From positions 1,240,001 through 1,304,000 of the forward strand of contig BBSY01000002.1 of assembly GCA_000974665.1 (NCBI GenBank): a DNA stretch of 64,000 bases. Direction: 5' to 3'. The stretch is from an alpha proteobacterium U9-1i (GTDB taxonomy: Bacteria; Pseudomonadota; Alphaproteobacteria; Caulobacterales; Aquidulcibacteraceae). Under the pieces are notes generated by a model. That model was not told the DNA's origin and did not search any database. It was given only the letters and a program-made list of their open reading frames with translations. This document shows positions 50,429 through 64,000 of this stretch, piece after piece. Every line of letters begins with the position of its first letter. The stretch's first letter is position 1. Both the position numbers and the translations under genes were made by a program.

Positions 50429-52174
50429 TCAGAATTCCGGCGTTTCGATCTGCTTCTTCAGTTCCTTTTTCATGATCTTGCCGTTGGCGTTGCGGGGCAG
50501 CGTCTCGGGCCAGAAAATCACGTCAACGGGCACTTTGAACGCGGCAAGTTTCTGCGCGACATGATGGCGGAGCTCAGGGGCGCTCGCTTCGAAGCCCGGC
50601 TTCAGGTGCACGACGGCGAGGGGTTCTTCGCCCAAGGTTTGATGCGGCTTGCCGATCACTGCGGCGTCCATCACCGAAGGATGGTCGTAGAGAGCGTTTT
50701 CGACCTCCACGCAATAGATGTTCTCGCCGCCGCGGATTAGCATGTCCTTGGCGCGATCGACGATATAGACGAAGCCTTCCTCATCGATCTTGGCCAGATC
50801 GCCGGTTTTCACCCAGCCGTCGAAGAACGTCTCGGCTGTCGCTTTGGGGTTTTCCCAGTAGCCGCGCACGACAATTGGGCCCTTGTACCAAAGCTCGCCC
50901 ACCTCATTGGGGCCGAGCACTTTGCCGTCGGGATCGACGATCTTGGCTTCGCCGGTGGCCGCGCACACGCCAGTGCTTGAGGGTTTACGCTCGTAGTCCT
51001 CCGCGGTGTTTGACACGGCGGTGGCCGAGGTTTCGGTCATGCCCCAGCCTTGGCTCGGCAGCGCTTTCGGGAAGCGCGACTTGATCAGTTTTACCAGTTC
51101 CGGCGCCGCCGGCGCACCGCCGTAGGCGACGCTTTCGATCGACGAGAGATCGTACTCGCCCATGCGCGGATGAGTGAGCACTTGCCAGGCGATGGTCGGC
51201 ACGCCGCCGATGTGAGTGATGCGTTCCTTTTCGATCAAGGGCAGCGCTTGGTCTGTATCCCACCGGCGTTGCATCACGATTTTTTGCCCCGCCATCAGAA
51301 ACGGGATCATCACGGCGAAGCAGCCGGTCGCGTGGAAGAACGGCACCGACACCAGGTAGGATTTCTGCGGCGCGCTTGGGTCCGGCGCAGGGGGCGCTTC
51401 ACCTCGGCGCAGAAACGCGCGCGCCTGAGCGGAAGCCGAGTTGAACATGTTGGAAATGATGTTGCGGTGTGAAACGACGGCGCCCTTGGGGTGCCCAGTC
51501 GTGCCAGATGTGTAGAAGATCGACACGTCATCATCTGGCGCCATCGCGACTTCAGGCGGCGCGATCGCGCCGAAGGATTTCCACTCATTCGTCAGGCCGA
51601 TAACGTCCTCAAGCCGCGCGACGGGCGGGTCGGCAGTCTCTTCGGGTAGGCGCGACACATAGATTTTGCGGATCGCCGGGCAGTTCGGCAGATGCTCGCG
51701 CAAGCGCTCGTAGCGCTCGGCGTCGACGATCAGCAGCGAAGAACCCGAATTGTTCAGGCCGTATTCGAGCTCGGAACCCGTCCACCAGGCGTTGAGCGGC
51801 GTGACAATAGCGCCCGCGAGCACTGCGCCCCAGAACGCCACCGGCCATTCCGGCAAATTGCGCATGACGATGGCGACGCGGTCGCCCTTCTTCACGCCAT
51901 CGGCCACGAGTTGGTGCGCCATCTTGGCTGCGGCGGCTTGGAATGCCGAAACCGTGGCGCGCTCATCCTCGAAGACCAAATGGTCGCGCGCGCCGAACAG
52001 GGCGCCAAGCGCGAACACTTCACGCAACGTCGCCGGGGCGTTTTTCCAGATTTTATAGCTGACGCCGCGAATTTCGGCGTCGCCGAGTTCGAACATGGAG
52101 CCGGGCTGGGTCAGCAGCCCGTGCGCCTGAGCGATCGACATGGCGGGCGGGCCGGGCGTGGCGGCTTCGGTCAT
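50429..52174 (-). CDS. Class I acyl-CoA synthetase (AMP-binding family)
   Basis: 581 residues. It activates a carboxylic acid as acyl-AMP and transfers it to CoA. The P-loop is FYTSGTTGHPKGAVVSH, followed by GWGMTETSATA, KTGDLAKIDEEGFVYIVDRAKDMLIRGGENIY (in parts) and the catalytic lysine in NANGKIMKKEL. Overall layout fits medium/long-chain fatty acyl-CoA ligases. ATG 52174 has GGGAGGAG 11 bases upstream. Divergent from the macroglobulin gene with 200 bases between. Confidence 0.9.
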   Translation of the reverse strand: MTEAATPGPPAMSIAQAHGLLTQPGSMFELGDAEIRGVSYKIWKNAPATLREVFALGALFGARDHLVFEDERATVSAFQAAAAKMAHQLVADGVKKGDRVAIVMRNLPEWPVAFWGAVLAGAIVTPLNAWWTGSELEYGLNNSGSSLLIVDAERYERLREHLPNCPAIRKIYVSRLPEETADPPVARLEDVIGLTNEWKSFGAIAPPEVAMAPDDDVSIFYTSGTTGHPKGAVVSHRNIISNMFNSASAQARAFLRRGEAPPAPDPSAPQKSYLVSVPFFHATGCFAVMIPFLMAGQKIVMQRRWDTDQALPLIEKERITHIGGVPTIAWQVLTHPRMGEYDLSSIESVAYGGAPAAPELVKLIKSRFPKALPSQGWGMTETSATAVSNTAEDYERKPSSTGVCAATGEAKIVDPDGKVLGPNEVGELWYKGPIVVRGYWENPKATAETFFDGWVKTGDLAKIDEEGFVYIVDRAKDMLIRGGENIYCVEVENALYDHPSVMDAAVIGKPHQTLGEEPLAVVHLKPGFEASAPELRHHVAQKLAAFKVPVDVIFWPETLPRNANGKIMKKELKKQIETPEF

Positions 52175-52375
52175 TCTGGGTCGCTCCTCCCGCGGCGGCG
52201 TTCTCAAAAAGGCGCCGCTCGCGTCATCTTTTTGTATCGAGCTGTTTCCGAACGTCTAGTCCTGGCGCCAAAAGCCGCGCTTGCCCGAAACTTGCCGGAA
52301 TTTAATGATGTATTGCGGCTTGCGCGAAGCTCGGGCAAGCATGCGTTTATCCGGGCGGGACGGGAGACGCGCATC

Positions 52376-55300
52376 ATGGCTTTCAATTGGAAATCCGTGC
52401 TCGAACGGCTTGATCCAAACAAGCTGCCGGGCTTCACGCGTGCGCGTGACTTCGTGCTGGCCAATCGCAATGCGGTTTTGGCCACCTCCATAGCATTGTT
52501 CGTCGGCCTTTGGGGCGGCGCGGTGATGGGGCGCGTGAGCGCCGGCGCGCCAGCGTTCAGCTTTGCCCAGCTTGGTTCGGTTGGCGCAGGCGGCGCTGCG
52601 CGCTCGGCCAACGCACCGCGCGCCGGCGCAAACCAGTTCGACGGCATGGCGTTCGTGCGCTTGCGCACCGAGCTTGATCAAGCCGAGCCACGTGCGTGCT
52701 TGGAATTCTCGCGCAATCTCTCGACCAACGCTTCGGTCAACTATTCCGATTACATCCAACTCGAACCGGCCGTGCCGTTTCAGGTGGATGTGTCCGGCAA
52801 TCTGCTTTGCCTCGCGGGGCTTCCGTTCGAGCCAGAGCGCCAGATCACCATTCGCCAAGGCCTTCCGGCCGAAGGCGGCGAAGTCACCGAAGCGGATGAA
52901 AGCTTCCAGCTCACCTTCGGTGATCGCCCCGCTTATGTCGGCTTTGCCGGCGCTGGCGTGATCCTGCCGCGCGCGGAAGCCGATGGTATTGCGATCGAGA
53001 CCGTGAACGTTTCGAAGCTTGAAGTCCGCGTGCTGCGTGTGCCGGACCGCATCCTGTCTCAGCACGAAATCTCGCCCGGCGAAAACAACGAAGAGGGCGG
53101 TTGGAACTATTGGAGCTTCGACTACGCCGCGTCCGACGTTGGCGTGCAGGTGTACGAAGGCGAGATCGACGTTGCCTTGACCGGGCATCGCAATGAAGCG
53201 GTGACGACGGTGTTCGCGCTGGGCGCGGCGCTCAACGAGCTGCGTCCAGGCGCTTACGTTGTAAAGGTGCGCGACGCTTCCGAGAGCGCCGGGCCGGACG
53301 ATGGCGATAACGCTTCAGTGGCTTCGGCGTATCGCTGGATTCTCTACACGGACATGGCGTTGCAGACATTCTCCGGCGCCACCGGCATCGACGTTGTGGT
53401 GCGTTCGCTCCGCACCGCGCGGCCGATGGCAAATGTGAATTTGGCGCTGATCGCGCAAAACAATGAAGAACTCGCGCGCGCCCGTACGGACAACGAAGGC
53501 CGCGTGCATTTCTCGGAAGCGCTCGTCAACGGCGATGGCCCGTCGCGGGCGCGCTACGTGATGGCGTACGGATCAGCCGGCGATTTCGCCGCGCTTGATC
53601 TGCAGCGCCCCGCGATTGATCTCTCCGATCGCGGTGTCGACGGCCGCCGCGCCGCAGGCGACATCGATGCCTACCTTTACACCGAGCGTGGCGTCTACCG
53701 CCCTGGTGAACGCGTGCGCTTGATCGGCTTGGTGCGCGACGAAGTGGGGCGCGCGATTTCCGACCGGCAATCGACGCTCGTGGTCTATCGCCCGAACGGC
53801 ACCGAAGCGCGGCGCATTCGCTTGCAGGAAGCGCGTGACGCCGGCGCCATCGCCAAAAACATCGAGCTCGACCGTTCCGCGCCGCGAGGCATGTGGCGGG
53901 CGACGTTGCAGGTTGACGGCCAAGAAGCGCTCGCCGGCGAAGTGTCGTTCTCGGTCGAGGATTTCGTGCCGCAGCGTCTGCGCGTGCAGATCGACGCGAA
54001 CGAAGCCGTGTTGCTGCGCGGGCAGGCGCGTCCGATCAGTGTGCAGGCCGATTTCCTTTACGGCGCACCGGGCGCCGGCCTGAACGTCGACGGTGAAGGC
54101 CGATTGATGGTCGATCCAAATCCGTTCCCGGAATTCGAGGGCTACCAATTCGGTCGCGCCGATGAATCGTTCTCCGAGCGCTTCTTCCAATTGCCGAGCA
54201 CCGTGACTGACGGCGACGGCCATGCGGACCTTTCGGTGCAATTGCCGGAGGAGCCGGAAACATCGTTGCCGCTGCGCGCACGCGTGCTCGCAAGCGTCGC
54301 CGATCCGGGCGGGCGCGTGGTGCGTGAAAGCTTCACGCTGCCGGTGCGCCTCAACAATGTGTATCTCGGCCTCAAGGCTGGTTTTGAGAACCAGCGCGCC
54401 GGCGCCGGGGAACGTGTCGCGTATGACGTGATCGCGGTGAACGCCAACGGTCAACGCGCCGGCTTGCGCGGCGTCCAGTGGACGTTGGTGCGCGAAGATT
54501 GGAGTTACGATTGGTATCTCGATAATGGCCAATGGCGCTGGCGCCGGACGGGCCGCGACATTCCTGTCGATGGCGCGACGGTCGACATCGCCGCCAACCA
54601 ACCGCTGCGCATTGCCCGCGATAGCCTGCGCGAAGGCTCCTACCGTTTGATGGTGCGCGGCGGCGGCACGGAAGCCTCCACGCGCTTCGGCGTCGGTTGG
54701 GGCGGCCCGGCCGATGATGATTCCACGCCGGACATGGTGACGGTGATCGCGCCGGAAAATCCGACACGGCCTGGCGCGCGCGCGCGCGTACAAATCCGCC
54801 CGCCTTATGCCGGCGAAGCGCAGATCGTGGTGGCGACCGACCGCGTGATCGAAACGCGTACAATCCGCGTGAGCTCCGATGGCGCGACCGTCGATTTGCC
54901 GGTGAACGCTGAATGGGGTTCGGGCGCCTATGTGCTCGTGACCGTTATGACAGCGCGCGATCCGGTGAATTTGCCGGTGCCGCGTCGGGCCATAGGCGTC
55001 GCCTATGTGCCTGTCGACATGGGCAATCGCACGCTCGACGTGGCGGTGGGCGAAGGTCTGCAGAATGTGCGACCGCGCACGACCGTGAACGTTCCGATCG
55101 TGGTGCGTGGTGCGCCTTCTGGCGAGCGTGTGCGCGTTGCGATCGCGATGGTGGACGAGGGCATCCTCAACCTCACCAAATACACAAGCCCGAACCCGAC
55201 GGAGTATTTCTTCAGCCGTCGCGCGCTGGGCGTCGACATGCGCGACGATTACGGGCGCTTGCTCAATCCGAATTTGGGCGCGCCGGCAAATGCGCGTCAG

Positions 55301-57403
55301 GGCGGTGACTCGCTCGGCGGTGAGGGGCTGACAGTTGTGCCAACGCGCACGGTGTCCTTGTTCTCCGACATCGTGACGCTATCGGGCGGGCGCGGAACCA
55401 TTGCACTCGACATTCCCGACTTCAACGGAACGCTGCGGCTGATGGCGGTGGCGTGGAGCGAAAGCGCACTTGGGCAAGATGCGGAAGAGGTGGTGGTCCG
55501 CGACCCTGTGGTGGCGGAACTGATCATGCCGCGCTTCCTAGCGCCCGGCGATGAAGCCCAAGCCGCGCTCAATATCGACAACGTCGAAGGCCCCAACGGC
55601 GCTTACACGGTGACGATCAGCGGCACGGACACTGCGCGCATCGCGGCCCAACCGCGTCGTTTCACGCTTGCGCGTGGGCAACGCCAGACGGCTTACATCC
55701 CGTTGACGGGCGGTCCGCTGGGGGTTGGGCGGATTTCGCTCCGCCTCGAAGGACCACAAGGCTTCGCCGCGGTTGATCGAACGTATGACATCCAAACCCG
55801 CGCCCCGTTTATGCCGATCACGCTCACGGAAACGGCGCCATTGGCGTCGGGCGGAACGTGGACGGCGCCGCCGGATGCGCTCTCGCGCTTCCAGCCGAGC
55901 GGGCAAGCGTTGATCTCGTTCTCCAACCTGGCGGGCATCGATCCCGCGCCGTTGCTGGATGAACTGTATCGCTATCCGTATGGCTGCTCGGAGCAATTGG
56001 TGTCGGTGGCGATGCCGCTGCTTTACTACAACACACTGTCAAGCGAAGCGGGTCGCCGTGCGGATGTACGCATCACGCGGCGTGTGCAGGAAGCCGCAAC
56101 GCAATTGCTTGACCGGCAAACGCCGGACGGTGCGTTCGGTTTGTGGAGCGCGGGCGACCGCAACGCGACGCCATGGATCGGCGCTTACGTGGCGGACTTC
56201 CTGTTGCGCGCGCAAAGCGCTGGCTTTGCGGTGCCGCGCGCGCCGATGGAGCAAGCTTATGCAGCATTGCGGCAAGTGGCGCGGCTGAACGATTTCGGTT
56301 CGGTTGGCTATCAGTTTGAAATCTATCGCTGGCCCGGCTCGAACGACTCGGACGCTTTGATGCGTTCGCGCGCGGCGGCGTATGCGCTGTATGTGCTGGC
56401 GAAAGCCGGGCGCGCCGACATCGGCCAAGTGCGGTACTATCACGACGCACGCTTGCGGGATGAGCCCTCGCCATTGGCGCGGGCGCAGATCGCGGCGGCG
56501 CTGGCGCACTTGGGTGATCGTGTCCGCTCGCGCAACGCCTTCCGCATGGCCGAGCGCGCGCTTGGCTATCGCAACACCGGCGACTGGTATCAAACGCCGC
56601 TGCGCGATCTCGCGGGCGTGTTGGCGCTTGCTGCCGAAGCGGGCGAAACCGAGATGGTGGATCGCCTGCGCCGTCGTCTCGAGCGCGATGCGCCGGAAGC
56701 GGGCGCGTTGATGACGCAAGAGCAAGTGCAATTGTTGCTGGCTGCGAACTCTCTGCTTGAAGGCTCAGGCCCGGTGAACGTTACGCTGAATGGCCAGCCC
56801 TTGCCGGAACGCCGCTTGATGGCGGATGCGCGGCGCTTGGCCGAAGGCTTGGCGTTCCGCAACGCGTCTCCGCGCGGCGCGGTGTGGCGGACGCTGCAAA
56901 CGTCCGGCCCCACGCGCGAGCCGCCGCCGGCGATGCAGGCGGGCTACACGATCGACAAGCGCGTGTTCACATTGAACGGTGCGCTCGCCGATCTCGACAA
57001 CATCCGCCAGGGCGATCGTGTGGTGGTGGTGGTGTCGGGCCAACCGGAAGGCGCGCGCAATTATCCAACGGTGTTGGTGGACATGCTGCCGGCTGGTCTC
57101 GAGATCGAAAGCTTGCTCGGGCCGCAGGATGGCAGCGGATCCGAGAATTATGATGGCTCGCGTCGCAACGGCCCGTTCGCCTGGATTGGCAACATCACCT
57201 ACACGGATGTGTCGGAAGCGCGCGACGATCGCTACGTCGCTTCGGCCAATCTGCGCGGCGCTTATCGCTACGCCTACATCGCACGCGCGGTGACGCCCGG
57301 GCGCTACACTATGCCGGGCGCGCAGGTTGAAGATATGTATCGCCCGGGCGTGATGGCGCGTACGGCCGCCGGCACGATCCGCATCAGTCCGCGCGGAGGC
57401 TAA
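52376..57403 (+). CDS. Bacterial alpha-2-macroglobulin family protein (YfhM-like), membrane-anchored
   Basis: 1675 residues. A periplasmic protease trap: a single N-terminal membrane anchor (about 33-52) is followed by repeated MG domains, a bait region and the complement-like thioester domain with CSEQ at C1204 (YGCSEQLVSVAMPLLYYN). E. coli YfhM uses a lipobox; here a membrane helix replaces it. The next gene encodes PBP1C, the standard partner, so the pair likely protects and repairs the cell wall against hostile proteases. ATG 52376 is preferred since upstream codons are antisense to the synthetase leader. Confidence 0.92.
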   Translation: MAFNWKSVLERLDPNKLPGFTRARDFVLANRNAVLATSIALFVGLWGGAVMGRVSAGAPAFSFAQLGSVGAGGAARSANAPRAGANQFDGMAFVRLRTELDQAEPRACLEFSRNLSTNASVNYSDYIQLEPAVPFQVDVSGNLLCLAGLPFEPERQITIRQGLPAEGGEVTEADESFQLTFGDRPAYVGFAGAGVILPRAEADGIAIETVNVSKLEVRVLRVPDRILSQHEISPGENNEEGGWNYWSFDYAASDVGVQVYEGEIDVALTGHRNEAVTTVFALGAALNELRPGAYVVKVRDASESAGPDDGDNASVASAYRWILYTDMALQTFSGATGIDVVVRSLRTARPMANVNLALIAQNNEELARARTDNEGRVHFSEALVNGDGPSRARYVMAYGSAGDFAALDLQRPAIDLSDRGVDGRRAAGDIDAYLYTERGVYRPGERVRLIGLVRDEVGRAISDRQSTLVVYRPNGTEARRIRLQEARDAGAIAKNIELDRSAPRGMWRATLQVDGQEALAGEVSFSVEDFVPQRLRVQIDANEAVLLRGQARPISVQADFLYGAPGAGLNVDGEGRLMVDPNPFPEFEGYQFGRADESFSERFFQLPSTVTDGDGHADLSVQLPEEPETSLPLRARVLASVADPGGRVVRESFTLPVRLNNVYLGLKAGFENQRAGAGERVAYDVIAVNANGQRAGLRGVQWTLVREDWSYDWYLDNGQWRWRRTGRDIPVDGATVDIAANQPLRIARDSLREGSYRLMVRGGGTEASTRFGVGWGGPADDDSTPDMVTVIAPENPTRPGARARVQIRPPYAGEAQIVVATDRVIETRTIRVSSDGATVDLPVNAEWGSGAYVLVTVMTARDPVNLPVPRRAIGVAYVPVDMGNRTLDVAVGEGLQNVRPRTTVNVPIVVRGAPSGERVRVAIAMVDEGILNLTKYTSPNPTEYFFSRRALGVDMRDDYGRLLNPNLGAPANARQGGDSLGGEGLTVVPTRTVSLFSDIVTLSGGRGTIALDIPDFNGTLRLMAVAWSESALGQDAEEVVVRDPVVAELIMPRFLAPGDEAQAALNIDNVEGPNGAYTVTISGTDTARIAAQPRRFTLARGQRQTAYIPLTGGPLGVGRISLRLEGPQGFAAVDRTYDIQTRAPFMPITLTETAPLASGGTWTAPPDALSRFQPSGQALISFSNLAGIDPAPLLDELYRYPYGCSEQLVSVAMPLLYYNTLSSEAGRRADVRITRRVQEAATQLLDRQTPDGAFGLWSAGDRNATPWIGAYVADFLLRAQSAGFAVPRAPMEQAYAALRQVARLNDFGSVGYQFEIYRWPGSNDSDALMRSRAAAYALYVLAKAGRADIGQVRYYHDARLRDEPSPLARAQIAAALAHLGDRVRSRNAFRMAERALGYRNTGDWYQTPLRDLAGVLALAAEAGETEMVDRLRRRLERDAPEAGALMTQEQVQLLLAANSLLEGSGPVNVTLNGQPLPERRLMADARRLAEGLAFRNASPRGAVWRTLQTSGPTREPPPAMQAGYTIDKRVFTLNGALADLDNIRQGDRVVVVVSGQPEGARNYPTVLVDMLPAGLEIESLLGPQDGSGSENYDGSRRNGPFAWIGNITYTDVSEARDDRYVASANLRGAYRYAYIARAVTPGRYTMPGAQVEDMYRPGVMARTAAGTIRISPRGG

Positions 57404-57406
57404 GTG

Positions 57407-59506
57407 ATGCCCCCTTCATTCGAGGGAGGGGGAAGAGTACGCCGAGGGCCCCGTGCTGCGCTGCCGCTGACGGACAAGCAACGCGGCTGGGCGCGCGTGC
57501 TGTTGGTGGTGATGCTCACGCTGTTTACGCTCGACGTGGCATTGCCGCCGCCGCTGGCGCGGGTGCGCGATGTTTCGCCGGTAGTTTTGGATCAGCACGG
57601 TCAGTGGCTGATGGCGTTCACCACCACGAACGGCACGTGGCGGCTCGAAGCACGGCTCGATGAAATCGATCCTGAATTCCAGCGTCGGCTGATCGCCATT
57701 GAAGACGAGCGATTTTGGTTTCACCCCGGCGTCGATCCCATTGCGCTGGCGCGGGCAAGTGTCGCTTATGCGCGCGCCGGCCGTGTAACGCAGGGTGGCT
57801 CGACGATCACCATGCAGCTGGCGCGCTTGCTGGAGCCGCGACCGCGCACGATTCAATCCAAGTTGATCGAGATCGTCCGCGCGGTGCAGATTGAGCGGCG
57901 TTGGTCGAAGCGCGAAATCCTCGCCGCGTATCTCACCATGGCCCCGTATGGCGGCAACCTCGAAGGCGTGCGGGCGGCGTCGCGCGCGTACTTCCAGCGC
58001 GATCCGCAATGGTTGGACGATGCGGAGATGGCGTTGCTGATCGCTTTGCCGCAGGCGCCGGAAGCGCGGCGTCCGGACCGGCGCCCGCAGGCGGCGCGTG
58101 CATCGCGCGACCGGGTGCTCAACATGTTTGTGCGCATCGGCGCGATCAGCCGCGGTCGGGCGGCAGAGGGGCGGCAGGCGGCGATACCGACGCGTGCGCC
58201 GTTCCCATACTCGGCCCCGCACGCGGCGGAAGCATTGGTCGCGGCGCATGAAGGGGAAGGCGTTGTTGCGTCGACGCTCGATGCGCGTTTGCAGAGCGAC
58301 TTTGAAGCGCTGGCGCGTCGACGCGCTGAACCGTTGGAGCGCGAAGCGCAGGTGGCGATCCTGGCTGTCGAGCTTGAAGGGCGCGGCGTGCGCGCCCGCG
58401 TTGGCGGCGCAGGGCGCGAGCGCGCGGGCGGCTACATCGACATGACCCGCGCCATCCGCTCGCCCGGTTCGGCGTTGAAGCCGTTTCTCTACGCGATCGC
58501 GTTCGATGAAGGAATCGCCGCGCCGGAGACGTTGGTGCGGGACGCACCGCGCCGATTTGGCGGGTATCTACCGGAAAACTTTGATCGGCGTTTCCACGGT
58601 GACGTGTCACTCGAAGATGCGCTGCGGCATTCGCTCAATCTGCCGGCCGTCGCCACTTTGGATCGCATTGGCGCCAATCGCTTCCGCGCGGCGCTGACGC
58701 GCGCTGGCGCCGAAGTGCGGATGCCGGATCGCGCTGATTCCGAGCCTGGCTTGGCGCTGGCGCTTGGCGGCGTGGGCATGAGCTTGGAAGGCTTAGTGCA
58801 GCTTTATGCGGCGCTCGGCGATGAAGGCAATGCGCGTCCGCTGGCAAGCGATCCGCTCCAAGGGTTTGCGTTTACACGCCGTTTCGTGCGCGCCGAAACC
58901 GCCGAGCGCGTGCTTGAGATCCTCGCCACGTCGCCAAGTCCCGCGGGCCGCACGCCGTCGCAGCTGGCGCAGAATGCCCCGCAAGTCGCATTTAAGACGG
59001 GCACGTCTTACGGTTTTCGCGATGCGTGGGCGTTGGGCGTCGCCAATGGCTACGCGATTGGCGTGTGGGTTGGCCGGCCCGATGGCGCGCCGCGTCCAGG
59101 CGCGACCGGTCGCGATGCGGCGTTGCCGATTTTGTTCGAGGCGTTCGATTTGCTGGGTGTGCCGACCCGGCCCGAGCGGCAACATGAGGAAGAAGAAGTT
59201 GCGCCCGCTTTGGTGCGGCTCGACGCCGAAGACAACGGCGCTGAGCAACTCTCTATCCTGTTCCCGCTCAACAACACCGAAGTTCTCGTGCTCGATTACG
59301 GTGCGGATTCTCGCGGGCTGTCGCTCTCGGCGCGCGGCGGGCGAGCGCCGCTGACATGGTATGCGGAGGGTGACCGGGTGCCGATAGAGGACACAAGCGG
59401 GCGCTCGATCTGGCGCCCGTCCGCGCCAGGTTTCCATGAGGTCACGGTGGTTGATGCCGAGGGCCGCAGCGCGCATGTGCGCGTGCGCATCCGGAGCAGC
59501 GGCTGA
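57407..59506 (+). CDS. pbpC: Penicillin-binding protein 1C
   Basis: About 699 residues. A bifunctional peptidoglycan glycosyltransferase/transpeptidase. One membrane helix (about 28-46); the GT51 active site is E99 in [15 protein letters not shown] with [13 protein letters not shown]; the transpeptidase has SxxK as SALK in [10 protein letters not shown], SxN as SLN in [10 protein letters not shown], and KTGTS. A C-terminal BiPBP_C domain ([22 protein letters not shown] onward) is present, diagnostic for PBP1C. ATG 57407 lies three bases after the macroglobulin stop with GCGGAGGC before it. Confidence 0.93.
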
Positions 59507-59911: not shown

Positions 59912-61285
59912 ATGCGAAATTGGGTCATCGCCGCTATGGCGGCGTGCGTTTGCGCGGGCTCTGCTGCGGCGCAGGCGCCGACGAGCGACCATGCTTTGCT
60001 GCGCCAAGTCGCGGGCGAGGTAAGCGAAGAGCGCTTGCAAGGCTATATCGCCCGCATGGTGGGGTTCGGCACGCGCCACACGATGTCGGACACGCGCTCG
60101 AACCGGCGGGGCATAGGCGCTGCGCGGCGTTGGGTGGAGGCGGAGTTCCGCACGATGTCCAGCGCATGCGGCGGCTGCCTGGAGATCGCGACGCCATCGG
60201 AAACGATCAGCGGGACCCAGCGCATCCCGACGCCAACCGAAGTGGTGAACGTGTTGGCGATCCAGCGCGGGACGAGCGACCCAACACGCGTGATCATCAT
60301 CTCTGGCCACCTCGATAGCCGCGTCAGCGACGTGATGGACTTCACCTCTGACGCGCCGGGCGCGAACGACGATGCATCCGGCGTCGCCGCGGTGATGGAA
60401 GCGGCGCGTGTGCTATCGCAGCATCGCTTCGCGGCGACATTGGTGTATGCGGCGCTCTCTGGCGAAGAGCAGGGCTTGCACGGGGGCAAGGTGTTGGCCG
60501 ACTACGCACGCGCGCAGGGTTGGCGCGTCGAGGCTGTGCTCAACAACGATATCGTCGGCAACACCGAAGGCATTGGCGGCACACGCAATAACACCCAGGT
60601 GCGCGTGTTCTCCGAAGGCACGCGTGCAGTCGAGACGCCGGAAGAAGCCAATCGCCGCCGCTACAATGGCGGCGAAGTGGACTCGCCCTCGCGCAACCTA
60701 GGCCGCTTCATGGACCGCATGGCCGATGTGTATCTCACCAATTTCGACGTCAACATGGTCTATCGCACCGACCGGTTCGGGCGCGGCGGCGATCAGGTTC
60801 GTATGCTGGAAGCCGGATATCCCAGCGTCCGCGTAACGGAGGCGGCTGAGAATTACCATCGCCAGCACCAGGATTTGCGCCGCGAGAATGGCATTCGCTA
60901 CGGCGACACCATCGACGGCGTGGACTTTGCGTATCTGGCGCAAGTGACGCGGCTCAACATCGTGTCGATGGCAGCACTCGCTAACGCGCCGGCGCCGCCG
61001 GGCGGCGTCAACATCAACGGCGCTGTCAGCGCGGATACGATGGTGTCGTGGCAAGCCGTTGAAGGCGCCGTCGGCTATCGCGTGTGGTGGCGCTCCACAA
61101 CGGACGCGCAATGGCGTTACGTGCGCCATGCGCCCGCTAGCGCGACAGAGCTTAAGCTTGAGAATGTGGTGATCGACGATTGGTTCTTCGGCGTGTCGGC
61201 GGTATCCGCCGACGGTTATGAGAGCCCCGTCGTGTTTCCCGGCGTGGCCGGCGCGTTCTTCCCCGTTGCGCCGGCATCGCGCTGA
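59912..61285 (+). CDS. M28-family zinc metallopeptidase with C-terminal fibronectin type III-like domain
   Basis: 457 residues. Signal peptide MRNWVIAAMAACVCAGSAAAQ. The metal site is H133 in IISGHLDS, D153/154 in PGANDDASG, E185/E186 in LSGEEQG, followed by LNNDIVGNTEG and a late NYHRQHQ histidine, typical of aminopeptidases that cut N-terminal residues. Residues ~365-455 (VSWQAVEGAVGYRVWWRS...) form an Fn3-like domain. Four bases-plus AGGGGACG precede the ATG. A 14-bp terminator hairpin begins ten bases past the stop. Confidence 0.92.
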   Translation: MRNWVIAAMAACVCAGSAAAQAPTSDHALLRQVAGEVSEERLQGYIARMVGFGTRHTMSDTRSNRRGIGAARRWVEAEFRTMSSACGGCLEIATPSETISGTQRIPTPTEVVNVLAIQRGTSDPTRVIIISGHLDSRVSDVMDFTSDAPGANDDASGVAAVMEAARVLSQHRFAATLVYAALSGEEQGLHGGKVLADYARAQGWRVEAVLNNDIVGNTEGIGGTRNNTQVRVFSEGTRAVETPEEANRRRYNGGEVDSPSRNLGRFMDRMADVYLTNFDVNMVYRTDRFGRGGDQVRMLEAGYPSVRVTEAAENYHRQHQDLRRENGIRYGDTIDGVDFAYLAQVTRLNIVSMAALANAPAPPGGVNINGAVSADTMVSWQAVEGAVGYRVWWRSTTDAQWRYVRHAPASATELKLENVVIDDWFFGVSAVSADGYESPVVFPGVAGAFFPVAPASR

Positions 61286-61294
61286 ACAAGAGAA

Positions 61295-61404
61295 AAGGCG
61301 CGAACCTCTTCGAGCGGGGGGCTTGAGGTTCGCGCCTTGATCGATGACCGCCCGTATTTTGAGCGGGGTTAGCGGGCGAGCGGCCATCGAAATTGGTATT
61401 GTCC
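61295..61404. repeat. Hairpin repeat unit 1 (adjacent to the M28 gene)
   Basis: First of three tandem ~105-base units. Hairpin A: perfect 14-base stem AAGGCGCGAACCTC (61295-61308) / GAGGTTCGCGCCTT (61325-61338). Hairpin B: imperfect stem around 61343-61390. Both loops carry GAGCGGGG (61312 and 61361). The unit ends in TTGTCC. On the minus strand a TTTTC tail follows hairpin A, so this may be a terminator for that strand; on the plus strand it can end the M28 transcript. Confidence 0.8.
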
Positions 61405-61413
61405 GAAACGGTG

Positions 61414-61517
61414 AGGCGCGGATCCCATTTGAGCGGGGGAGCTTGGGATCCGCGCCTAATTCAATCGCCGCCTATTGGAGCGGGGTTGGCGGGTTCGGCG
61501 ACGATTGAAACTTGTCC
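61414..61517. repeat. Hairpin repeat unit 2
   Basis: Hairpin A: perfect 14-base stem AGGCGCGGATCCCA (61414-61427) / TGGGATCCGCGCCT (61444-61457). Hairpin B: TTCAATCGCCGCC (61460) / GGCGACGATTGAA (61497-61509), one mismatch. Loops again show GAGCGGGG at 61431 and 61478. Ends in TTGTCC. Confidence 0.8.
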
Positions 61518-61552
61518 TCTTTGGCGCCCAGAAGGTCGCCGGTTGATGGGGC

Positions 61553-61657
61553 AAGGCGCGGACCCGGTGAGCGGGGGAGCTATCAAGGTCCGCGCCTTTT
61601 TCGATCGCCGCCTTGGAGCGGGGTTGGCGGGTTAGGCGGCGATCAAATTCGTTGTCC
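61553..61657. repeat. Hairpin repeat unit 3
   Basis: Hairpin A: perfect 12-base stem AAGGCGCGGACC (61553-61564) / GGTCCGCGCCTT (61587-61598) followed by TTT on the plus strand. Hairpin B: perfect 10-base stem GATCGCCGCC (61603-61612) / GGCGGCGATC (61635-61644). Loops carry GAGCGGGG at 61569 and 61616. Ends in TTGTCC. The minus-strand reading of 61632-61646 gives LIAA-stop, a remnant of the micro-ORF ending. Confidence 0.8.
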
Positions 61658-61689
61658 AGTGAACGCTAAATCGCCGATTTGGTTTCCTC

Positions 61690-61705
61690 CGTGACCGAGG
61701 TCACA
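61690..61705. promoter_or_regulatory. CRP/FNR-like palindrome 1
   Basis: CGTGA-CCGAGG-TCACA, one base from the TGTGA-N6-TCACA consensus, between hairpin unit 3 and the first micro-ORF region. Confidence 0.45.
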
Positions 61706-61802
61706 GTCCGAACGGTTTTGTTGCAAACCTACTGATTTGTAAGACGCGGACCGCGCTCAGTGGCCCGCGCTTGGACCGATCGCCGCCGCGAGAGCGGGAG
61801 AG

Positions 61803-61895
61803 TTAGGCGACAATCAAAGCGGCCTGGTTGAGGGTGCTCAGCGCCACCGGAACGAAGAGGGCTGCGGCGGCGAACAGGCTGAAAAATTTGGTCAT
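61803..61895 (-). CDS. Micro-ORF 1, hydrophobic 30-residue peptide
   Basis: ATG 61895 with GGGAG seven bases upstream encodes a 30-residue peptide beginning MTKFFSLFAAAALFV and ending NQAALIVA. Hydrophobic centre with a basic N-terminus gives it a single-membrane-helix or signal-peptide look. It shares start (MTKF), the FxPVAL core and the IVA-stop end with micro-ORF 2, which argues strongly for real translation. Its last codons (TTGATTGTCGCC on the minus strand) form one arm of a hairpin with sequence after the stop. Function unknown; a type I toxin, an exported peptide or a small membrane regulator are possible. Confidence 0.65.
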   Translation of the reverse strand: MTKFFSLFAAAALFVPVALSTLNQAALIVA

Positions 61896-61960
61896 GCGAT
61901 GCTCCCGTGTGCTCGTGAAATCTCGATGCGCTGAACCTAGGCGGGGCCGCGTATTGTCGA

Positions 61961-61976
61961 TGTGACGGTGGTCACC
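61961..61976. promoter_or_regulatory. CRP/FNR-like palindrome 2
   Basis: TGTGA-CGGTGG-TCACC, one base from TGTGA-N6-TCACA, centred about 73 bases upstream of micro-ORF 1. It also lies in the divergent region before the 62178 gene. Confidence 0.5.
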
Positions 61977-62177
61977 GAGCCCCATGATCGTCGGACACGC
62001 GTCAAGCCGACCAAGCTCCGTCGATCGGCCGCGCCCGCTCCAAACCTCAATCACAAGCGCGTCCACCCTTTCTTCATGGGCGCAGCGCACAGCCTGCAGG
62101 ATCACAGCGCAAACGTTGACCTCGCTGTTTCAGAGCGCGACGCTTCGAGGCGTCCAGAAAGTGCGCGGAGGGCCGAG

Positions 62178-63329
62178 ATGAAGGCAGGCTGGCGTGCAGG
62201 GGCTTTGGTGGCGGGCGTCGCCGCGCTCGCGTTCGCGGCGGTGGCGGCGGCGGTTGAGTTGCGCTCCGGCAACGATGTGCAGCTCAACGGCACATTCTCC
62301 GACCTCGCGTTTGCGGCGGGGGACAATGTCAGCCTCAGCCTCACGACCACGGACGATCTGGCCGCTGCCGGCGGCGAAGTGGCCGCGCGAGACGCGATCA
62401 TGGACGACGTGTTCCTCTTTGGCGGGGATATCTCCTTCATCTCGTCGACGGCGCGCGATCTGTTCGCGGCGGGTGGCGAGATCGATGTACTGAGTGGAAC
62501 AATCGCCGACGATGTCGTTGCGGCCGGCGGGCGCGTTAAACTGGCGCGCGAGGCGCGGGTTGACGGCGCAGTCGTGGTCGCAGGGCGTGAGATCACGATC
62601 GAGGCGCCCGTGGGCGCGGGCCTGCGTGCGGCGGGCGGATCGATATCGCTCAACACCAATGTCAACGGTGACGTGTATCTCGACGGCGGAACGATCGTGA
62701 TTGGTCCCGACACGCACATCACCGGCACGCTGACGCATCGTGGGCGCCGCGTTGAGCTTGCGCCGGACGCGCAGATTGACGGCCAGATTGTCGCGCTGAC
62801 GCCGCGCGCGGAGCCGGACTACAAACGCCTTGCGCAAGTTGCCGGCTGGCTGGCGCTTAGCGTCTCACTTGGATTCTTGCTGTTGGGCGCGGTGGTTGCG
62901 CTGGCGATGCCGCGCCTAATGAATGAAACCGCGGCAATCGCGCGGCGGCGGCCGTTGTCGATGCTGGGGCTCGGTTTTTTGATTTTCCTGCTCGCTCCAA
63001 TCATCTTCCTGTTCTTGATCGTATCCGTGCTTGGGCTGGCGCTCGGTTTTCTGTTGGCCGCCATCTACGCGGTGCTGTGGCCGCTCGCGCTTGCTGGGGC
63101 CGCGTATGCGCTTGGCATGCTCATCCGAACACGCGTGCGTCCGCTTGCGGCGCCGACACCAGGCGCAGGCGCGCGTTTGATGTGGAGCGCGATCGGGCTT
63201 GTGTTGCTGGTGCTCGTCGGTCTGATCCCGTTTCTTGGCTCGCTTGTTTGGCTGCTGGCGTTCCTGGTCGGGCTCGGCGCTGTTTCGGTTGAAGCCTCGC
63301 GCGCTTTGGCGCGCACGCCGGCGGCCTGA
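62178..63329 (+). CDS. Polymer-forming/bactofilin-like membrane protein
   Basis: 383 residues. Signal/first helix (residues 1-26), then an extracytoplasmic right-handed beta-helix of short repeats (GGEVAARDAIMDDVFLFGGD, AAGGEIDVLSGTIADDVVAAGGRV, VNGDVYLDGGTIVIGPDTHI in pieces), then about four C-terminal membrane helices (GWLALSVSLGFLLLGAVVAL onward). This matches the polymer-forming cytoskeletal family (bactofilin-related), here exported. GGAGG lies six bases before ATG 62178. Role unknown, probably envelope structure. Confidence 0.82.
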   Translation: MKAGWRAGALVAGVAALAFAAVAAAVELRSGNDVQLNGTFSDLAFAAGDNVSLSLTTTDDLAAAGGEVAARDAIMDDVFLFGGDISFISSTARDLFAAGGEIDVLSGTIADDVVAAGGRVKLAREARVDGAVVVAGREITIEAPVGAGLRAAGGSISLNTNVNGDVYLDGGTIVIGPDTHITGTLTHRGRRVELAPDAQIDGQIVALTPRAEPDYKRLAQVAGWLALSVSLGFLLLGAVVALAMPRLMNETAAIARRRPLSMLGLGFLIFLLAPIIFLFLIVSVLGLALGFLLAAIYAVLWPLALAGAAYALGMLIRTRVRPLAAPTPGAGARLMWSAIGLVLLVLVGLIPFLGSLVWLLAFLVGLGAVSVEASRALARTPAA

Positions 63330-63349
63330 AACTCATCATCCGCAAACGA

Positions 63350-63385
63350 GAAAGGCGCGACGCCTGGCGGGGCATCGCGCCTTTC
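63350..63385 (+). terminator. Terminator after the bactofilin-like gene, related to the hairpin family
   Basis: GAAAGGCGCGA / TCGCGCCTTTC stem with inner GCC/GGC pairs, 21 bases after the stop. It shares the AAGGCGCG core with the neighbouring repeat hairpins. Confidence 0.75.
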
Positions 63386-63490
63386 CGCTTCGTGCTGCGA
63401 GACATGACCAAGCAGCGCAGAAGACGATGCATCAAGGATGCATGCGGCCCGCAACGTGGATGCTGGGTAATGCAATTGTGCAAAGAAAAA

Positions 63491-63514
63491 GGCGCAGACC
63501 CGAAGGTCCGCGCC
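63491..63514 (-). terminator. Terminator of micro-ORF 2
   Basis: On the minus strand GGCGCGGACC, a TTCG tetraloop and GGTCTGCGCC are followed by TTTTT. A textbook rho-independent terminator 31 bases past the micro-ORF stop. Confidence 0.9.
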
Positions 63515-63545
63515 TGACACACCGTCGCCTGGGACAGGACAGGGT

Positions 63546-63638
63546 TTAGGCGACGATTTGAGCCGCTTGCGCGGCAAGGGCGAGCGCGACAGGCGCGAAA
63601 AGCGTGAAGGCGATTGTGATGCTGATGAACTTCGTCAT
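63546..63638 (-). CDS. Micro-ORF 2, hydrophobic 30-residue peptide
   Basis: ATG 63638 with AGGGGAA eight bases upstream encodes a peptide beginning MTKFISITIAFTLFAPVAL and ending QAAQIVA. The frame, length (30), MTKF start, FxPVAL core and IVA-stop end match micro-ORF 1 despite 1.7 kb between them. The last codons and stop form a hairpin arm with AGGCGAC / GTCGCCT just after the gene. A perfect terminator follows, so it is an independent minus-strand transcription unit. Function unknown. Confidence 0.65.
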   Translation of the reverse strand: MTKFISITIAFTLFAPVALALAAQAAQIVA

Positions 63639-63754
63639 GTGAAATTCCCCTCTGTTGAACTCTTACAACTGAGATGCCAGACGCGGCCGTAATGGATGCG
63701 GCGCAGCAGAAATTCTTCAGTGCGCGCACAGCGCTTCATCGGCGCACAAAAAGT

Positions 63755-63783
63755 AAGGCGCGGACCTTGGGGGTCCGCGCCTT
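63755..63783 (-). terminator. Terminator of micro-ORF 3
   Basis: Perfect 12-base stem AAGGCGCGGACC (63755-63766) / GGTCCGCGCCTT (63772-63783). On the minus strand ACTTTTT follows. Nearly identical in its arms to the hairpins at 61553 and 63491. Confidence 0.88.
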
Positions 63784-63811
63784 GTCCAACCGTCGCTTGC
63801 GGTGTGAGGGA

Positions 63812-63892
63812 TCAGGCGACGATCAGATATGCGTGCGTCATCGCGCCGCGACGGAGCGCGGGCGCGAAGGCAAAACGGATACGTTTGCTCAT
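63812..63892 (-). CDS. Micro-ORF 3, 26-residue peptide
   Basis: ATG 63892 with CAGGGA upstream encodes MSKRIRFAFAPALRRGAMTHAYLIVA in outline: M-S-K start, FAFAPAL core and the same LIVA-stop end as micro-ORFs 1 and 2, but more basic (RIR, LRRG) and shorter. The core retains F-x-P-A-L. It keeps the hairpin-forming last codons and its own terminator. It may be a diverged or decaying member of the family. Confidence 0.55.
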   Translation of the reverse strand: MSKRIRFAFAPALRRGAMTHAYLIVA

Positions 63893-63972
63893 GACGAAAA
63901 TCCCTGTCGCACCTTGGATGCGGCAAGGGGCGCGCTTGGATGCGCCGGCGTCGAGAAAATTTTGGTTAAGTG

Positions 63973-64000
63973 AAAGGCGCGGACCCGGGCAAGGTCCGCG
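63973..64000 (-). repeat. Truncated GGCGCGGACC hairpin at the window edge
   Basis: AAAGGCGCGGACC ... GGTCCGCG runs to the last base. By analogy with units at 63491 and 63755 it should be the terminator of a further micro-ORF beyond the window. Confidence 0.7.

Follow-up and report, generated by a model that had tools for sequence, protein, structure and literature searches.

A multi-copy family of 30-residue peptides, candidate small membrane proteins, in the alpha proteobacterium U9-1i and related bacteria

Micro-ORFs at the Locus

The DNA analyzed here, referred to as the window, is a stretch of 64,000 nucleotides (nt) from the alpha proteobacterium U9-1i (contig BBSY01000002.1, positions 1,240,001 to 1,304,000); window coordinates are used unless stated otherwise. 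Near its end, the minus strand carries three very short open reading frames (ORFs), which an initial annotation had described as a translated family of three, each with a Shine-Dalgarno (SD) sequence and its own terminator. All three were present as described, and each of them shows SD-like purines and is followed by a G+C-rich hairpin.

Micro-ORF 1 (61803..61895, minus strand) encodes the 30 amino acid (aa) peptide MTKFFSLFAAAALFVPVALSTLNQAALIVA. A CRP-like palindrome, GTGAC-N4-GTCAC, was identified 5′ of it (61962..61975), and the leader contains a putative −10-like element, CCTAGGTT (61934..61941, minus strand), corresponding to the consensus ...TAggTTC of what is called the class A promoter below. 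A terminator-like hairpin lies 3′ of the ORF (61742..61774, minus strand). Micro-ORF 2 (63546..63638, minus strand; 30 aa, MTKFISITIAFTLFAPVALALAAQAAQIVA) is an array unit with a class B promoter, whose element GCATCC-N16-GCATC is located at 63673..63699 (minus strand) and which is followed by a terminator-like hairpin at 63488..63517 (minus strand). The third ORF (63812..63892, minus strand; 26 aa, MSKRIRFAFAPALRRGAMTHAYLIVA) possesses a class B element (63917..63943) and a terminator-like hairpin (63755..63784), both on the minus strand. A remnant unit at 63437..63463 (minus strand) comprises a class B element and then a terminator-like hairpin, with no recognizable family ORF between them, and a further true family copy is found just beyond the window end, at window coordinates 64036-64128.

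The proposed homology of the two 30-aa peptides was borne out. The peptide of micro-ORF 2 matches micro-ORF 1 in the U9-1i genome with 60% identity (E 0.0088), and a 13-row family profile matches micro-ORFs 1 and 2 with E-values of 1.4e-15 and 1.4e-12, respectively, both being rows of that profile. The 26-aa ORF was matched neither by this profile in the own genome nor by the profiles of the order and class searches, and its best 19-residue hydropathy is 0.87, compared with at least 1.6 in 166 of 167 family peptides (Kyte-Doolittle values). It is probably a degenerate array unit and not a working family member, since the class B element and the terminator-like hairpin are retained. The family of three therefore stands for two of the three ORFs, and as a count it was too small, given 13 copies in the own genome and up to 23 in relatives.

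Family Size and Distribution

The search of the U9-1i genome with the peptide of micro-ORF 2 yielded 13 places. The profile built from these (A1) recovered the same 13 in the 4.05 Mb genome, each with E ≤ 1.8e-10, as well as three weak extra matches (E 0.28-0.71). The copies are distributed over three contigs. By our count, eight copies stand alone among ordinary genes, two are paired with each other, two belong to the array and the remaining one comes after a divergent relative.

A 50-row profile (A2) detected the family in all but one of the 30 genomes of this genus, the 29 carrying 1-23 copies each at E ≤ 0.001; the single member without a copy is a genome that is 57% complete. Outside the genus, the A2 search of 299 genomes of the order identified the family in four genomes of a sister genus (g22) and one of another (g8), and it returned one partial match in a different family (G289). 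Full-length members in a class-wide sample of 385 genomes were confined to the own genome, two others (G379 and G579) showing partial matches. The partial matches in G379, G579 and G289 lie inside open frames of 388, 222 and 240 codons, respectively, and were taken as chance. The genome sampling is rich in metagenome-assembled genomes (MAGs), and the 61 loci on named genome contigs stem from MAGs titled Hyphomonadaceae, Caulobacterales, Caulobacteraceae, Terricaulis, Alphaproteobacteria or Proteobacteria.

Three peptides, each searched in Pfam, NCBIfam, PADLOC and PHROGs, gave no match at E ≤ 1, nor did profile A2 in the PDB, and no description of this peptide family was found in a literature search. 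One peptide of a relative was searched against plasmid and phage collections without a match, and none of 73 pattern matches in IMG/VR was confirmed as a relative; the reading as a mobile element was rejected on these grounds. The peptide family is real, undescribed and lineage-specific, and it is present in one group of soil and water bacteria with up to about two dozen copies. It combines strong selection with zero matches in the family libraries searched and represents a gene family of more than 100 distinct sequences (137 in one set) and up to 23 copies per genome that was overlooked owing to its length.

Evidence for Translation

The analysis of synonymous and non-synonymous differences (pS and pN, per site) was restricted to ATG-started members of 30 codons. 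Counts were de-duplicated by sequence; in one member set, five profile matches lacking a usable start codon were left out, and similar matches were also dropped in a later set. In 61 disjoint nearest pairs among 123 distinct ORFs, 467.2 synonymous and 360.8 non-synonymous differences were counted at about 22.3 synonymous and 67.7 non-synonymous sites, resulting in a pooled pN/pS of 0.254. pN was smaller than pS in all 61 pairs, and the differences at the three codon positions amounted to 219, 121 and 488. The same holds within the own genome, where 10 ORFs gave pN < pS in 45 of 45 paralogue pairs (means of 0.213 for pN and 0.578 for pS). For the three pairs among the copies in or just past the window, pS/pN values of 0.75/0.31, 0.61/0.36 and 0.50/0.25 were obtained.

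An SD-like motif at the right distance was found in 134 of 187 distinct upstream stretches, compared with 20 of 187 in a control interval. A terminator-like hairpin within 150 nt 3′ of the ORF was present for 108 of the 134 members that are last in their unit (16.0 in shuffles).

The micro-ORF family is not a product of chance, because 13 copies with E ≤ 1.8e-10 each coincide with strong purifying selection, and its translation is strongly supported by these sequence comparisons. The initial annotation had named missing homologues, or substitutions without preference for synonymous sites, as findings that would speak against a translated family below annotation cut-offs; when checked, homologues were many and synonymous changes were in strong excess. 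Since selection acts on the protein, a noncoding RNA with an incidental ORF was rejected as the sole explanation. Rfam returned nothing in the window at gathering scores, and the three weak matches in the region 61000-64000 (best E = 1) were far below their cut-offs.

Peptide Anatomy

For the anatomy of the peptides, 137 distinct sequences of 27-37 aa from 159 members (E < 1e-3) were examined. The third position is K or R in 135 peptides, P16 is invariant and A18 occurs in 134. Residue 20 is A (105), S (20), T (5), V (5), I (1) or N (1), hence A or S in 125. The last seven residues, with the C-terminal motif QAAxIVA, form the most conserved stretch: Q24 is found in 137 peptides, A25 in 136, A26 in 135, I or M at position 28 in 136, V29 in 130 and A30 in 123 of the 127 long enough to include it. 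The hydropathy values given above, determined for 167 ATG-started peptides of 27-37 aa, indicate one hydrophobic span, and not a single acidic residue (D or E) occurs in these 167 peptides. The member at G000:C3:45626 would be longer and contain some acidic residues if started at an ATG further upstream.

In the own genus, this anatomy would suit a signal peptide followed by 10 mature residues as well as a single membrane span. According to the former, residues 1-20 would be a Sec signal peptide, and cutting after residue 20 would free TLNQAAQIVA (consensus) into the periplasm or to the outside as a signal or structural peptide. Such a product is possible, if rather unlikely. It would account for the combination of A18 (134 of 137), a small residue 20 in most peptides and a bulky residue 19, for the proline four residues before residue 20, for the roughly 11-residue hydrophobic core and for the conservation of the last seven residues.

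The sister-genus copies bear directly on this point. Of their 26 distinct peptides, the Q motif allowed 22 to be aligned; nine of these have P16, 12 have P20 and no proline at position 16, and one has S16 with A20. V20 occurs in three, all of them P16 peptides, so that 15 of 22 carry P or V at position 20 and one conserved site with small residues at −3 and −1 is not found throughout the family. P20 and V20 should block or weaken cutting after residue 20, yet the C-terminal motif is mostly kept or slightly varied. Eight of the 12 P20 peptides combine A16 with A18 and would perhaps be cut after residue 18, whereas the other four have L or M at position 16. A precedent that speaks against a secreted peptide is TimP, whose predicted site is nevertheless uncut (PMC7667032), though the −3 residue of TimP is Leu. 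In addition, no exporter, receptor or protease gene was noticed repeatedly next to the dispersed copies in the own genome, as judged by eye from N-termini. A membrane-anchored peptide is favored because the shift of the proline by one helical turn, from position 16 to 20, suits a kinked helix, and because a proline at position 20 should spoil signal-peptidase cutting after this residue.

CRP-Like Palindrome of the Putative Class A Promoter

The promoter analysis was based on 196 members (E < 1e-3) from all fetched loci, comprising 139 leaders, 56 second genes and one member with a short upstream stretch. Second genes were defined by a family-like tail just upstream and the lack of both promoter elements, a rule that takes element-less members out of the leaders whenever they follow another copy. 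The palindrome GTG[AC]C-N4-G[TG]CAC was identified in 98 of the 139 leaders, compared with 0.08 expected from two-base block shuffles. Both elements were present in 11 leaders and neither in nine. From its position, the CRP-like site of most leaders looks like it is placed in the apparent −35 region.

The exact form GTGAC-N4-GTCAC occurs at 15 places in the own genome (three for the reversed control). Six of these lie directly upstream of family ORFs, one heads a divergent pair at C3:45376, one heads an ORF-less hairpin array in the window (61691-61704) and seven are located elsewhere, five of them close to starts whose products appear, by eye, to be exported or lipoprotein-like. A CRP-family gene with cNMP-binding and Crp helix-turn-helix (HTH) domains (contig coordinates about 1,396,840-1,397,540) was found about 2.4 kb from one family copy. 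Its helix SREKVNRKL resembles the recognition helix of E. coli CRP. Among 13 fetched loci with Crp-type HTH matches, the motif pattern fits this gene only, a pattern that does not exclude the others.

A 5′ hairpin was detected in 62 of 86 class A leaders, whereas shuffles gave 8.1 and, over 200 rounds, never more than 15. It starts 32-37 nt past the palindrome in 55 of these 62 leaders. This constant distance, together with 25 different stems, suggests a conserved structure.

GCATC Element of the Putative Class B Promoter

The second element, GCATC-N12-24-GCATC, was found in 43 of 139 leaders (0.40 expected), and 41 of the 43 share a 22-bp period. In the own genome, GCATCC-N16-GCATC occurs at 21 sites, four of which lie in the window array and at its edge. 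In our judgement, 13 of the 17 other sites are located about 35-150 nt before a correctly oriented start, and nine of these 13 starts encode, by eye, a signal-peptide or lipoprotein-like N-terminus; the remaining four sites lie inside genes or lack a clear start. The element is found 5′ of an operon of a DUF6249 gene and an extracytoplasmic function (ECF) sigma factor, 5′ of a DUF6249 relative (below the curated cut-off) and 5′ of the genes of two DUF2807 proteins. Further products behind it are an S41-type peptidase, an outer-membrane efflux protein, a DUF4932 protein and lipoprotein-like proteins.

ECF factors generally autoregulate. The class B element looks like an ECF promoter with a −35 GCATCC and a −10 GCATC, presumably read by the ECF factor of this operon, since it shows a 16-bp spacing and stands before the sigma-factor operon, and since it also precedes genes for exported proteins. 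The operon itself (G000:C3 about 953,500-954,930, L186) contains in a row the DUF6249 gene, the ECF sigma factor gene (about 953,890-954,440) and a gene for a 127-aa protein without a Pfam match. Headed by the class B element of the array, it is a candidate envelope-stress sigma regulon with an unusual promoter.

By our sums, the 30 genomes of the genus contain on average 16.8 class B sites (4-27), compared with 5.0 (0-11) in seven genomes of other genera of the family and 3.7 (0-15) in 24 genomes from the order's other families. These families served as comparison because the reversed-pattern control may be biased. The element is therefore enriched in, though not restricted to, the genus. One protein family is found under two separate promoter elements, each of which also stands before genes for exported proteins.

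Proposed Function and Comparison With Known Small Proteins

The best explanation of these results is a translated, lineage-specific multi-copy family of stress-regulated small single-helix inner-membrane proteins, with a probability of roughly 0.58. Among the three roles offered in the initial annotation (type I toxin peptides, exported signals and small membrane regulators), a small membrane protein is in our view the best fit to the sequences. The short basic N-terminus (K/R3) would remain inside, followed by one hydrophobic helix with its proline, and the C-terminal QAAxIVA would be positioned at the outer face. Stress signals would act via the ECF factor on the array copies and via a CRP-like regulator on the dispersed copies. 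Short mono- or bicistronic mRNAs would be made, most of them with a leader containing the CRP-like site and the 5′ hairpin. Once inserted into the inner membrane, the peptides would build up during envelope or nutrient stress, a condition regarded as most likely given that genes for envelope and exported proteins stand behind the same elements. The family and its copy number, the selection on the protein, the shared elements, the pairs, the terminator-like hairpins and the array neighborhood follow directly from the sequences, whereas the location and orientation in the membrane, the acting sigma factor and CRP-family protein, the stress induction and the envelope effect are inferred.

Several observations weigh against this explanation. 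In the own-genus peptides, A18, A/S20 and the bulky residue 19 make up a good-looking site for signal peptidase I, and A16 with A18 in eight of the 12 P20 peptides is a possible alternative cleavage site. Three genomes of other families (G037, G041 and G043) hold 10, 13 and 15 class B sites. Only proximity, a recognition-helix motif and the assumption of autoregulation led to the assignment of the regulators. Finally, no common neighbor theme was recognized for the dispersed copies of the own genome, by eye and from N-termini.

YohP of E. coli is encoded by a single gene, whereas the family is present in 1-23 copies as singles, pairs and arrays, and no sequence link between the two is known. 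Both are very short, and YohP (27 aa) is described as a very short membrane protein linked to stress conditions (PMC12719787). By analogy with YohP, the family peptides might change membrane properties or partner proteins. If class B is an envelope-stress sigma promoter, the role of very small stress membrane proteins could be put directly to the test in a cultured relative, for example Terricaulis silvestris (named in PMC12700997).

The type I toxins Ldr, Ibs and TisB are short hydrophobic peptides, with tandem paralogues in some cases. The family resembles them in length, hydrophobicity and tandem paralogues but differs in promoter elements and distribution. The proposal that the peptides are type I toxins, held off by antisense RNAs, appears improbable. 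Length, hydrophobicity, tandem copies and short transcripts are similar to those of known type I toxins (reviewed in PMC8309996); no positive support was obtained beyond length, hydrophobicity and tandem copies, the antitoxin RNA not having been looked for. The promoter elements also precede genes for exported proteins, the family is distributed genus-wide with one locus syntenic, and neither a plasmid or phage match for the one relative's peptide nor a confirmed IMG/VR relative was obtained, all of which argue against a toxin.

TimP of Salmonella is a toxic 38-aa protein with Leu at −3 and Asp at +1 that is repressed by the small RNA TimR (PMC7667032). The N-terminus of both TimP and the family is hydrophobic and resembles a signal sequence, with a predicted site for signal peptidase I. 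In contrast to TimP with its Asp at +1, the 167 family peptides contain no D or E, and the family is multi-copy.

Pairs, Array Neighborhood and Hairpin Units

In total, 57 adjacent family pairs with a distance of at most 120 nt were found, 51 of which are 25-53 nt apart. The mean identities were 0.598 between first peptides, 0.701 between second peptides and 0.599 between first and second ones. The separation statistic of 0.047 was reached in none of 300 random swaps, in a test that ignores relatedness between genomes. The second peptides are more uniform; the first peptides are diverse and do not make up a tight cluster of their own.

The window array has counterparts of 3-5 units in relatives. 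At lower window coordinates, an alpha-2-macroglobulin gene (51692-57403, plus strand) adjoins a PBP1C-type gene (57404-59506, plus strand), both assigned by Pfam and the latter syntenic with the array. In a comparison of 22 array loci, which includes at least two repeats (L128 and L129 being the places of L104 and L115) and several loci too short for both sides, an orthologue of the PBP1C gene was present in 15, one of the EF-hand protein in eight and one of the response regulator in nine; PBP1C occurred together with either of the latter two in six of the 22. PBP1C neighbors the array in three genera, including the loci of g22 and g8, and the side with the EF-hand protein and response regulator was seen only in loci outside g22 and g8.

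First- and second-gene peptides of the bicistronic units might form hetero-oligomers in the inner membrane, the up to about two dozen near-copies per cell allowing the CRP-family regulator and the ECF factor each to dose one envelope-protecting assembly that aids the alpha-2-macroglobulin/PBP1C defence next to the array. This is doubtful, and it is weakened by the finding that a first peptide resembles other first peptides no more closely than it does second ones.

A stem formed by the last codons and the first 55 nt past the stop was detected in 17 of 32 class B members, 10 of 11 hybrid members and 25 of 56 second-gene members, compared with 4.8, 2.0 and 8.1 in shuffles. In class A it was found in nine of 82, which is not above the shuffles (9.2). 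Three tandem ORF-less units at 61293..61649 (minus strand) are headed by the CRP-like palindrome at 61691-61704. Each consists of a hairpin like the stop-codon hairpin of the array copies and a terminator-like hairpin, and the loops of these units share CCCCGCTC-like letters. They are possibly a repeat small RNA or remains of micro-ORF units.

The 5′ hairpin of the class A leaders (62 of 86), the tail hairpins (found in 27 of the 43 members of class B or the hybrid class and in 25 of the 56 second genes) and the ORF-less tandem units would be expected if the ORFs were leader peptides or incidental to small RNAs. This is nevertheless extremely unlikely, as selection acts on the protein, 108 of 134 last-in-unit members are followed within 150 nt by a terminator-like hairpin and, in the own genome, no gene was seen to recur 3′ of the copies.

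Outside the own genome, only short pieces of the ORF-less array match, in seven of the 29 other genomes of the genus. Six of the seven sites were fetched; in G005, G024 and G006 the piece lies at the tail of a family ORF, and in L131-L133 the pattern revealed no family ORF. A cuckoo/CcsR-like anti-SD role of the array was set aside, as only these short pieces match elsewhere in the genus. The CcaF1-CcsR loci of Rhodobacter likewise combine an alphaproteobacterial small-protein gene with nearby tandem hairpin RNA units. CcaF1 is reportedly an RNA-binding protein, whereas the family peptides are hydrophobic and without a Pfam match.

The divergent pair at G000:C3:45300-45712 (L014) has a palindrome upstream. 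It consists of a 32-aa ORF ending in AHAAQFTA, matched by the profile with E 0.011, and then an extended member ending in SQAANIVA.

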